Positions 1,858 to 60,251 of a stretch of 64,000 bases of DNA are shown piece by piece. The DNA comes from a virus: the IMG/VR virus record IMGVR_UViG_3300021519_000007, positions 1 through 64,000 of that record. One strand, given 5' to 3'. Every line of letters starts with the position of its first letter. Position 1 is the stretch's first letter. The notes under the pieces are model-generated. The model was given only the letters and a program-made list of their open reading frames with translations. It was not told where the DNA came from and did no database searches. The translations under genes were made by a program, and so were the position numbers.

Positions 1858-1866
<9 letters not shown>
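1821..1866 (-). repeat. 23-bp tandem duplication at a gene junction
   Basis: The unit at 1844-1866 is repeated immediately at 1821-1843. Read on the minus strand each copy contains ATGATTCCTATTGG. The copy nearer the collagen gene has its ATG overlapping the TGA stop of that gene (1860-1858). The other copy supplies the working start of the glycine-rich gene at 1838. Because 23 is not a multiple of three, the first ATG now opens a frame of only eight sense codons, which ends in a TGA that again overlaps the second ATG. Confidence 0.95.
1835..1861 (-). CDS. Eight-codon mini-frame bridging two fibre genes
   Basis: ATG at 1861 overlaps the stop codon of the 1397-residue fibre gene. The frame encodes MIPIGQTA and stops with a TGA at 1837-1835 that overlaps the ATG of the glycine-rich gene. 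It was created by the 23-bp duplication and is the relic of the original gene start. It may keep translation coupled through two consecutive ATGA overlaps. It is very unlikely to be a functional peptide by itself. Confidence 0.5.
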
Positions 1867-6051
<4,185 letters not shown>

Positions 6052-54776: not shown

Positions 54777-55880
54777 TTATATTATATCATATTCTTTAAG
54801 AATAATCATGAGAGAACTGGCCTCTTCAACCTTCTCCCAGTCTGTGTCCTTATAGGCAACCTTTGCGATCAATTTGCGCATCTCTTCGATCTCCTCTTCC
54901 GCATCCTTCTGCTTTGGCTTGTTCTGAATATCCCCAAGCCTGAGGATCAACATATCGTATGCGTTTTCTTCGCCGTGCATTGTTTCGATAAATTCTCTTG
55001 CACCCTTTTTATTATCAAAGTGATCAAACATATGCTCGCGGATGAAGAAGCAAACCTCTTTGGTGTCTTCCTCCGGCACACCCAGACGATCAAACATCTC
55101 TTTAACCATGTCTGGGCCGACCTCCTCATGGTCTCCACCCTGACCATCCGGACCCTTGTGAAAGTGGGTTCTACCCTTCTCGTCAACCCAGACAGATCTC
55201 AGTTTCCCAATATCATGAAGAAATGCAGCCCAACGAAGGTTTCTGTTGTTGCTGTGCTTGGCAACGTAGTCCAAACAAATGAGAAGGTGCTGGAACAGTT
55301 CAGAGGAGGTGTTCTTGTACCTTTGCCAGAACCCTTTGCTCTCGGCAACCTCCGGGAGCATGATCTTAAGCGCTCCAACCTCCTCCATAAGTCGAATTGC
55401 CGCTACGGGATTCTCTGCATCCATTATGTCATTAAGGCAATCGCGTATCTCTTCGGCGGGACAGTCCACAATATTTTTGACATATTTTTTAGCATCAAAG
55501 ATATCTTGCTCGTCTGGGATGTGTTCATTCATCGACCTAGTCACAAAAAGCGTCAGGAGATTGTCTACCTCAAAAAATGGGCTGGTCTTTGCGGTCCTTC
55601 TATTGTTTTGCATATAGTTTTGAACAACATCGTAGACCGTGTTCCGATTCCCCGGACACTCTTCAAAACAAATACGATTTAGATGGTTGATGTATCCGCG
55701 TGCCAGGATCCCCTTGTCTGACGGCGGAGCCTGCAAACCAGCAGCCCAGTAGTTGGCCTCGCGGGATAGTTCGGGGGCAAGATGCTCCAAGAGGACAAAG
55801 TGCGGCTCATAGCCCGTGACAACTTTTGGCTCACCAGAGAATGGTAGAACAGCAACCCAGTTATTCTTATCCGATGGCAT
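54777..55880 (-). CDS. HD-domain protein related to CCA-adding enzyme C-terminal half
   Basis: A 367-residue protein. Residues 160-300 resemble the HD region of tRNA nucleotidyltransferases and related phosphohydrolases: AIRLMEEVGALKIMLPEVAES, LFQHLLICLDYV (H197), FLHDIGK (H222-D223), GGDHEEVG (H251) and RLGDIQNK (D317). The nucleotidyltransferase head of such enzymes is absent. The N-terminal ~110 residues (PHFVLLEHLAPELSREANYWAAGLQ) are of unknown type. Likely a metal-dependent phosphohydrolase acting on nucleotides or RNA. It lies after the 55907 terminator, at the boundary between accessory and structural genes. Confidence 0.7.
   Translation of the reverse strand: MPSDKNNWVAVLPFSGEPKVVTGYEPHFVLLEHLAPELSREANYWAAGLQAPPSDKGILARGYINHLNRICFEECPGNRNTVYDVVQNYMQNNRRTAKTSPFFEVDNLLTLFVTRSMNEHIPDEQDIFDAKKYVKNIVDCPAEEIRDCLNDIMDAENPVAAIRLMEEVGALKIMLPEVAESKGFWQRYKNTSSELFQHLLICLDYVAKHSNNRNLRWAAFLHDIGKLRSVWVDEKGRTHFHKGPDGQGGDHEEVGPDMVKEMFDRLGVPEEDTKEVCFFIREHMFDHFDNKKGAREFIETMHGEENAYDMLILRLGDIQNKPKQKDAEEEIEEMRKLIAKVAYKDTDWEKVEEASSLMIILKEYDII
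54781..54789 (-). promoter_or_regulatory. Extended -10 overlapping end of HD-protein gene
   Basis: Minus-strand TGATATAAT (54789-54781) forms part of the last codons of the HD protein, and the next ATG is at 54774. The spacing would give a start site at or near the ATG. Same core as at 34864. Confidence 0.5.
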
Positions 55881-58449: not shown

Positions 58450-58760
58450 TTATCAAAAAAGTCATTTGAGGGATCCTCGGACCAGAAGCGGTAGATCACA
58501 GAGAACTCCTCGTCTTGACCAAAGCGCCAGCCCTCAGGGCACGACAAATCAATAGCGCTAGACAGATCGGCTAGGAGAAAGTCTTTATTGTCATTGGATG
58601 AGTTTTCAATGTTCTTGAACACGTCACTATAGTTCGACTGTAAAGTGTTCCAACGTTTTACGTCCACACCATTAAGCACATCAGACATCTTTTGAATAAC
58701 AGAATTTATACCGCTATCTAAATCAAAAGACACATCTTTGAATTCCTCAATGCTATCCAT
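58446..58760 (-). CDS. Small acidic protein of unknown function
   Basis: A 104-residue protein from ATG 58760, overlapping the previous gene end by eight bases. A longer frame to 58811 is unlikely because the overlap would be larger. It is acidic with two helices (SGINSVIQKMSDVLNG, KRWNTLQSNYSDVFKNIENS) and a C-terminal aromatic stretch (EGWRFGQDEEFSVIYRFW). Its stop lies inside a promoter for the next gene. No recognised family. Confidence 0.6.
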   Translation of the reverse strand: MDSIEEFKDVSFDLDSGINSVIQKMSDVLNGVDVKRWNTLQSNYSDVFKNIENSSNDNKDFLLADLSSAIDLSCPEGWRFGQDEEFSVIYRFWSEDPSNDFFDN

Positions 58761-59202
58761 CGAGAAGGTCAGCCCAGTTCTTCTCCTCATGGTGCTCAAA
58801 AAGTTCAACAATTGCTGCTAAAGAGATATTGTTTGTAGGTTGCTCAATAGCCCAAGTGAATACATTGTTATGATATTCTTCACGAAATACATAGAATCTT
58901 ATAGCAATCGGATAGGGGACACTGAACACTTCAATCAATCCCCAGAGACAATACATTTCATTGCCACCAATAGTGACGTTCTCTTTATGAACAATTCTCA
59001 CAGGAGTATGAACAACAGCGTCTCTAACGATACGGATATCTGTATCAAACGGAGCACCATTAGACCATGCTTTATTTGCCATTCTTAATGCTTCAATAAA
59101 TTCAAGGCAAGAATATTTTACAGTTCCAGTTTCTTTTTCATCCACAAAAACAAAGTCATCAAAATTTAGATAATCAAATTTGTCGTCGTCGATGATTCCC
59201 AT
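58753..59202 (-). CDS. Protein downstream of the structured RNA
   Basis: ATG 59202 is preceded by AGAGG five bases away and is preferred over ATG 59217 (alternative five residues longer). The 149-residue protein is acidic, with IIDDDKFDYLNFDDFVFVDE, then GNEMYCLWGLIEVFSVPYPIAIRFYVFREEY and a C-terminal helix (EHHEEKNWADLLDG). No family is recognised. It is the first gene after a folded RNA with its own promoter, so it is the gene most likely to be controlled by that element. Confidence 0.65.
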   Translation of the reverse strand: MGIIDDDKFDYLNFDDFVFVDEKETGTVKYSCLEFIEALRMANKAWSNGAPFDTDIRIVRDAVVHTPVRIVHKENVTIGGNEMYCLWGLIEVFSVPYPIAIRFYVFREEYHNNVFTWAIEQPTNNISLAAIVELFEHHEEKNWADLLDG

Positions 59203-59240
59203 AGTAACCTCTTTCATTAATATGTGGGAATCGGTTAGTT

Positions 59241-59360
59241 AGGAGCCCCGGTTCCCACCCGGCAATTATCGGCTTGCCTACCGCCTCACACGGTAGCACA
59301 GGCCGCGTAGAGACGCGACCATCTGACGGTCTACGTCCCGGATGCTGACCGGGGACTCCT
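59241..59360 (-). ncRNA. Highly structured RNA, candidate riboswitch or ncRNA
   Basis: Read on the minus strand, 59360-59348 (AGGAG-T-CCCCGGT) pairs with 59252-59241 (ACCGGGGCTCCT) as 12 bp with one bulged T. Inside, CATCCGG (59344-59338) pairs with CCGGGTG (59262-59256). Within that lie a CGTAG/CTACG helix with an inner ACC/GGT hairpin, CTACCG-7-CGGTAG, and GGCAA/TTGCC, which competes with the CATCCGG helix. So a multibranch fold is closed by a long stem. No known riboswitch class was recognised. It has its own promoter (59361-59388) and lies in the leader of the 149-residue gene, without a T-run after it. Confidence 0.6.
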
Positions 59361-59388
59361 ATTATACCAATTTATTTCTTTAAATCAA
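59361..59388 (-). promoter_or_regulatory. Promoter of the structured RNA
   Basis: TTGATT (59388-59383), a 16-base spacer ending TGG, then TATAAT (59366-59361), making an extended -10. Predicted start is within a few bases of 59355, at the beginning of the closing stem. It overlaps the last codons of the Rpf-like gene. Confidence 0.7.
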
Positions 59389-59821
59389 GATATGGTGCTT
59401 GTGATAGTGCAACGCCTGTACAACCCCAGGCATACACGCCGTAACGATTGACGATCCTCTGTGCTTGGATCATCTGTTGACGTGGTGTCGCCCTATCTGC
59501 GGTCGGAGCCATATCCGTTCCAGCAATACCTTTCTCATGCCACAGGGGTTCCCAAATACCCAAGCCCCCGGGGTAACTTCCGTTCCTCGTTTGGTGCCAG
59601 TCAATACCCCATTTGTATCTCTTTCCACTCGCACCGGCTGGAGCGGGCTGCTCACATCTACCGATAGCGATAAAGAATCTCCAATTAGGGACAATCTTTC
59701 CTATTCTCATGTGCTGTTTACCGTGCCTAATGCCTCCTCGATATTCCGGCAATGGACGAGCCAATGCTGTAGGCACCACTAGCATAACAATAACAAAAGC
59801 CAATATTAGTTTCTTAATCAT
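59372..59821 (-). CDS. Secreted Rpf-like muralytic enzyme
   Basis: From ATG 59821 (149 residues; a GTG at 59830 is the alternative). Residues 1-21 are a signal peptide (IKKLILAFVIVMLVVPTALA). The rest matches the resuscitation-promoting-factor fold: WRFFIAIGRCEQP with catalytic-type E57, YPGGLGIWEPLWHEKGI, APTADRATPRQQMIQAQRIV and YGVYAWGCTG, including the DRATPRQQ helix and the two Cys of the Rpf disulphide. Rpf proteins cleave actinobacterial peptidoglycan and waken dormant cells. It follows a second secreted lysozyme-like gene. Role in lysis, entry or host reactivation cannot be told apart. Confidence 0.85.
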   Translation of the reverse strand: MIKKLILAFVIVMLVVPTALARPLPEYRGGIRHGKQHMRIGKIVPNWRFFIAIGRCEQPAPAGASGKRYKWGIDWHQTRNGSYPGGLGIWEPLWHEKGIAGTDMAPTADRATPRQQMIQAQRIVNRYGVYAWGCTGVALSQAPYLDLKK

Positions 59822-59822
59822 T

Positions 59823-60251
59823 TTAAACACCCACTATTCTCGCGCAGGTCCAGTCGCTCCAGCCACGCGTTTTGTAGAAGTAATACGCGATCCTTGTGTT
59901 CCAGACAGGATCAAATATGTTCGCTCCAAGCCTCCACCCCTCTGAGTTGTAGGTTCGGTTGATCTGAAACAATCCGTAGTCCGAAGTCCTCGAGACGGCA
60001 TACGGATTCCACACGGACTCGCACGAAACGATCCGCATAGCGTTACCAGCCTGCGATCCAAAACCAATGCGGACGACGCACTCCAGTTCAGCCTTCGTCC
60101 AGTGAGCCGGACGATGGTTGCACGCGTACATCCTTTGCGTTTGGATCTTCTTCTTGTGCGGGTTGGGAATCCCCATCCCCGCTGTTGCTGTCCCAGTCGC
60201 AACCACTGTCGAACATATAAACACTGCGATAAATGTTAGTAGTACCTTCAC
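59823..60251 (-). CDS. Secreted lysozyme/transglycosylase-like protein
   Basis: GTG 60251 preceded by AGGAGG is preferred over a longer GTG start at 60305, because it yields a clean signal peptide (KVLLTFIAVFICSTVVATGTATA). The 142-residue product contains AMRIVSCESVWNPYAVS with Glu78, DYGLFQINRTYN and DPVWNTRIAYYFYKTRGWSDW, the core of SLT/lysozyme-like fold as seen in actinobacterial lytic proteins. A C-terminal WTCA and Cys44 give potential disulphides. It is separated from the Rpf-like gene by one base (TAA A ATG), so the two are co-expressed. A phage endolysin without a holin next to it is plausible. Confidence 0.82.
   Translation of the reverse strand: MKVLLTFIAVFICSTVVATGTATAGMGIPNPHKKKIQTQRMYACNHRPAHWTKAELECVVRIGFGSQAGNAMRIVSCESVWNPYAVSRTSDYGLFQINRTYNSEGWRLGANIFDPVWNTRIAYYFYKTRGWSDWTCARIVGV

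Follow-up and report, generated by a model that had tools for sequence, protein, structure and literature searches.

The window analysed here is a 64,000-nt stretch of a virus record of 75,997 bases, which contains a single copy of the RNA described below. This copy (W, compared here with loci L003, L007, L088 and L089–L093) occupies the leader of a hypothetical gene whose ATG, at 59202, is 39 nt downstream, and it follows a gene with a transglycosylase-like domain. A first-pass annotation of the same DNA had also placed the element in this leader rather than before a terminator, and indeed no terminator-like site adjoining the RNA was found in W. The features of the locus are as follows.

59372..59830, minus strand: upstream gene with transglycosylase-like domain PF06737 (Pfam)
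59383..59388, minus strand: −35-like hexamer TTGATT, overlapping the transglycosylase gene at its 3′ end
59361..59369, minus strand: extended −10, TGGTATAAT, TGnTAyAAT in W, L003, L007 and L088
59242..59359, minus strand: RNA, 118 nt, matched by covariance model in four large phages and in small phages
59348..59359, minus strand: P1 5′ strand, partner 59242–59252, U59355 bulged
59242..59252, minus strand: P1 3′ strand, partner of 59348..59359
59340..59344, minus strand: P2 5′ strand CAUCC, partner 59256–59260 GGGUG
59256..59260, minus strand: P2 3′ strand GGGUG, partner of CAUCC
59317..59331, minus strand: P3 hairpin GACC-GUCAGAU-GGUC, conserved loop GUYAGAK
59287..59309, minus strand: P4 hairpin, strands 59304–59309 and 59287–59292, with covariation
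59283..59285, minus strand: pseudoknot 5′ strand GGC, partner 59271–59273 GCC
59271..59273, minus strand: pseudoknot 3′ strand GCC, inside the P5 loop
59261..59278, minus strand: P5 hairpin GGCAA/UUGCC, with covariation
58753..59202, minus strand: downstream hypothetical gene, ATG at 59202, without Pfam match

On the minus strand, the interval of the first-pass annotation has a minimum free energy (MFE) of −68.4 kcal/mol, compared with −47.9 ± 4.1 for shuffled sequences (z −5.03; 0 of 200 as good). The plus strand of the same interval also folds well, as in any inverted repeat, and the strand therefore had to be decided from homologues. G-U pairs in P2, P3 and P4 set the minus strand as the RNA strand, and R1, a covariance model made from the four large-phage copies, scores L003 at 136 bits on the sense strand versus 25 bits on the other.

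Homologues were found in IMG/VR through the neighbouring helicase (leading to L003), the neighbouring transglycosylase gene (leading to L007) and a P3-hairpin pattern, which found L088, an 81.6-kb phage, and four contigs of 10.6–13.6 kb (L089, L090, L092 and L093). Three further large phages (L003, L007 and L088) thus carry the RNA. Together with W they score 121–142 bits with the covariance model, and in all four a transglycosylase-like gene lies upstream of the RNA. The RNA is 71–91% identical among the four large phages, compared with 42–58% for the 3′ flanks and ~48% for random sequence; the exception is the coding 5′ flank, which reaches 75% between W and L003, the other flanks being 42–58% identical. 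Between L007 and L088, the RNA is 89% identical although the following gene differs. A conserved ORF running across the RNA was rejected, with frames broken and lengths of 115–118.

The copies in a group of 13.6-kb actinophages are divergent, scoring 22–27 bits with R1, which does not include the pseudoknot; L091, a coding match from the same pattern, scores 18.5 bits. The E-values of the small-phage copies are flattered, because the pattern had preselected the hairpin. Beyond the search pattern, the 3′ side stands out from shuffles in L092 (P ~0.001) and L089 (P 0.008), in contrast to the control L091 (P 0.54), while the 5′ side shows no excess over shuffles. These copies belong to the new family by similarity beyond the search pattern and by a pseudoknot that falls in register. 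In the small phages, the RNA lies ~75 nt upstream of an HNH/TerL start, near the right end.

L089, L090, L092 and L093 are related 10.6–13.6-kb contigs of tiny tailed actinophages, whose nearest cultured relatives by capsid are 15–17-kb actinophages. Three contigs start at the same base (L090:8489), L089 stops just before it and L090 crosses it; these shared positions point to a fixed end for a phage genome of ~13.6 kb. The L090 junction, where HNH-like and terminase parts lie in one ORF, is a probable cos junction. Pfam detects the terminase part alone in this ORF, and the HNH assignment follows from its position and from the HNH genes annotated there in related phages.

Other searches added no member. 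The phage collection holds no close relative of W, and INPHARED BLAST with the RNAs of W, L007 and L092 returned nothing or short chance matches. The exact W pattern found L003 alone, and a loosened P3 pattern gave no new member, its remaining matches scoring as chance. Across 85k bacterial and archaeal genomes, the exact P3-hairpin pattern had three matches, none above chance score. R1 over 91 loci and the covariance model R2 over 50 full virus records found no further member. Nor did R2 have a convincing match in four small actinophage genomes or in another seven genomes or stretches. Only two phage lineages securely have the RNA.

A possible link to cultured phages comes from the hairpin CCGUUAGAKGG, which occurs in a conserved noncoding block in Arthrobacter phages Adaia and MooKitty and also in phage Hadban, near the right end of these small phages, which are related to the 13.6-kb group. 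The MooKitty and Adaia blocks are 83% alike and open with the same P3 hairpin as L003, (G)GCCGUUAGAGGGU; Hadban has GCCGUUAGAUGG at the corresponding position. The last loop position varies between G and U in the three phages, as in the main family. The P3 hairpin is the sole shared part: the rest of the block fails the covariance model, and R2 gives no match at the hairpin. Because R2 does not detect them, the three phages are treated as a lead, not as members. The block (L133:14785-14895 in MooKitty, with L137:2283 onward and L138:4348 onward for the other two phages) has stems of its own with apparent compensatory changes. Hadban (OR067381.1) has Pseudomonas aeruginosa as its recorded host and a capsid 65% identical to that of MooKitty; the host label may be wrong.

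Comparison of the copies resolves the fold into five stems. The 12-bp closing stem of the first-pass annotation is present when A59360-U59241 is counted, with U59355 bulged, and consists of AGGAG/CUCCU and CCCCGGU/ACCGGGG. Its outer portion is lost in L088, and pair 59358-59243 is G-C in W, U-A in L003 and A-U in L007. P2 is paired in all four large phages, with one-sided changes only. P3 is the most conserved segment and is common to the large and the 13.6-kb phages. P4 is 100% paired, with two-sided changes at three pairs over six sequences, and in P5 two pairs change on both sides, resulting in GGCUG/CAGCC. The H-type pseudoknot, absent from the fold first proposed, occurs as GGC/GCC, GGU/ACC and CGC/GCG. 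Neither R1 nor the alignment made from it included the pseudoknot, which nevertheless comes into register unaided, one pair changing from G-C to C-G and another from U-A to C-G.

In the four large-phage copies, a 34-pair structure has 96% of its cells paired and seven pairs changed on both sides; none of 500 shuffles is as good, and slid versions are 31–47% paired. With the small phages included, the core of P3, P4, pseudoknot and P5 is 100% paired with seven two-sided pairs (0 of 500 shuffles equal), and with so few lineages these cell counts differ from counts of events. The compensatory changes support P1 (outer part), P4, P5 and the H-type pseudoknot. The covariation that had been proposed as a check on the element is thus found in homologues, two-sided in P4, P5 and the pseudoknot.

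Other helices do not hold up across the copies. The MFE hairpin GCUACC/GGUAGGC shows no conservation and competes with the supported P4, which the consensus puts in its place. An outer P3 helix (GGGAC/GUCUC) has a U-U mismatch in L007 and L088, and the register of an alternative helix (CGUAGR/YCUACG) slips from sequence to sequence.

The RNA falls in no known class, as had been suspected: none of W, L003, L088 and L092 matches an Rfam 15 family even at E = 10, and no description was found in the literature searched, whose coverage leaves out subscription papers and preprints. ARAGORN calls only separate tRNA genes nearby, which argues against tRNA or tmRNA, and a tRNA-like reading of the P3 loop (anticodon-like or T-loop-like) is without ARAGORN or Rfam support. 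A Ro/Y RNA pair was also rejected, the TROVE protein (PF05731) being absent in eight records that are possibly incomplete. With phi29 prohead RNA (pRNA), the new RNA shares small size, phage origin, paired ends and conserved loops. It differs in phage type and in its position, which in the large phages is away from the contig ends, and none of the four copies matches the Rfam model. Only a handful of phage RNAs are known to have complex folds; among them, pRNA and put revealed new mechanisms. Structured phage RNAs are a known kind, and this one is new as a family. We are highly confident that the window holds a real structured phage RNA family, which appears to be undescribed.

The predicted extended −10 promoter with a TTGATT −35 is present. 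In W, TTGATT (59388-59383) is separated by 16 nt from TATAAT (59366-59361), with TG before the −10 and 10 of 12 matches overall; a single site of this quality is unremarkable, as 1.5 are expected by chance in 1 kb. The motif TGnTAyAAT is, however, conserved in 4/4 large-phage copies, 5–7 nt before UCCCC, while other flank sequence is mostly unrelated. L088 has TTGTCA at equal spacing (read by eye), and the −35s of L003 and L007 are weak. A normal sigma70 start lies at about +7. With P1 lying directly against the −10 hexamer, this start would fall near 59354, inside the P1 5′ strand, so that no single primary transcript can have both this promoter and the outer pairs of P1. The element does begin within a few bases of the −10, as first proposed, but the expected start falls within P1. 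A transcript from this −10 would probably be without the outer P1 pairs, yet one such pair covaries across three phages. Read-through transcripts plus processing would reconcile the promoter position with the covarying outer P1. No terminator is conserved among the copies, and a free 3′ end thus also requires processing.

The copies inspected lie ~25–90 nt upstream of a same-strand ORF, a position that fits a cis role too. The ORF encodes a hypothetical protein in W, L003 and L007, a 62-aa product in L088 and HNH/TerL in L090. The hypothetical gene of W has a homologue in L003 (36%) and apparently in L007; it is absent there in L088. Such varied ORFs argue against a one-gene riboswitch, and for an RNA acting in trans or a cis element that tolerates any downstream gene (e.g. 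HK022 put). Across the family, the comparison establishes homology, structure, strand, conservation above the neighbours and independence from any single downstream gene.

We give an even chance to the reading that this is a small stand-alone phage ncRNA gene, probably acting in trans on a host component. Its own extended −10 promoter would drive an RNA of ~118 nt, closed end to end by the P1/P2 helix and enclosing P3 with its almost invariant 7-nt loop GUYAGAK, the P4 hairpin and the H-type pseudoknot (P5 plus its loop strand). Released from a primary or read-through transcript, the RNA would function via its conserved loops, most likely binding a host component and, we infer, serving as a trans-acting scaffold or decoy. 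When the ORFs of one small phage are compared with large-phage sequence, the sole match is weak and falls in a repetitive, fibre-like stretch. As the phages that share this pseudoknotted RNA, conserved above its neighbours, have no recognised gene in common, a shared host target would be the simplest reason for its presence in both groups. A broader form of this reading, which we hold only tentatively, is a widespread actinophage RNA built on the invariant loop GUYAGAK and retained by unrelated phages for its action on conserved host machinery, with the Adaia, MooKitty and Hadban hairpin as a remote branch. Candidate targets would include RNA polymerase, the ribosome, replication or a defence nuclease. 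If the Arthrobacter-phage hairpin is confirmed as a relative, function becomes testable in cultured phages.

An unlikely alternative is a nascent-RNA element that folds at the start of the transcript and, by binding RNA polymerase, makes it resistant to pausing or termination in whichever operon follows. The HK022 put RNAs provide the precedent: they bring about antitermination unaided by any phage protein, with putL located directly after PL (PMC9378689). Like put, the new RNA is a conserved phage RNA just 3′ of a promoter in all four large phages, and may act whatever gene follows. A strong terminator-like hairpin lies downstream in the window (55941-55914, minus strand; 12 bp, 9 GC, then CTTTTT) and may end the operon begun at the RNA promoter. 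The architectures differ, however, put being ~70 nt with two stem-loops (PMC9378689) and the new RNA, at 118 nt, combining a closing helix with three hairpins and a pseudoknot. In addition, the small-phage copies have no obvious promoter by eye, and the operon has no evident internal terminators in need of suppression.

We consider it rather less probable that the RNA is part of a replication origin or primer. The related tiny phages lack an annotated replication gene, their 0.5–0.8-kb noncoding gap near the right end holds the same loop hairpin in Adaia, MooKitty and Hadban, and mycobacteriophages have RNA-based prophage origins (PMC7157519). In W-type phages, however, the RNA sits between ordinary genes.

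The switch originally proposed, a riboswitch-like leader of the hypothetical gene, is improbable. In its favour are the leader position, the conserved promoter-proximal fold with a pseudoknot 5′ of an ORF, and hairpins over the start codon in W and L003. The W hairpin (GAUUCCCA/UGGGAAUC, 59190-59235) has a 5′ arm, UUCCCAC, whose complementarity to GUGGGAA in the RNA would permit an alternative pairing. However, it is weak (z −1.3), that of L003 is weaker, unrelated and no better than shuffles (z 0.1), and L007 has none. The pairs first described as competing, GGCAA/UUGCC and CAUCCGG/CCGGGUG, both exist, but overlap by merely two C's; CAUCC/GGGUG and GGCAA/UUGCC form side by side and are both kept in 4/4 large phages. 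In L088 and the small phages another gene follows the RNA, giving three different ORFs in place of a constant regulated gene. A platform of mutually exclusive pairings is possible in W, weak in L003 and absent in L007, and no start-codon or terminator expression platform is conserved. Finally, a DNA-level palindrome or chance fold without any RNA is very improbable: P1 abuts the −10 as an inverted repeat and the plus strand folds well, but G-U pairs would become A-C on the opposite strand, P4, P5 and the pseudoknot all show two-sided substitutions, and the fold energy lies far from shuffles.

Two other features of the window deserve mention. This tRNA-bearing phage encodes a CCA-enzyme-like protein at 54777-55880, which has HD and PolyA_pol_RNAbd domains but no nucleotidyltransferase head domain that Pfam detects. 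At 1858-6051, a very long collagen-like protein of GPTGPT repeats is encoded amid tail genes.
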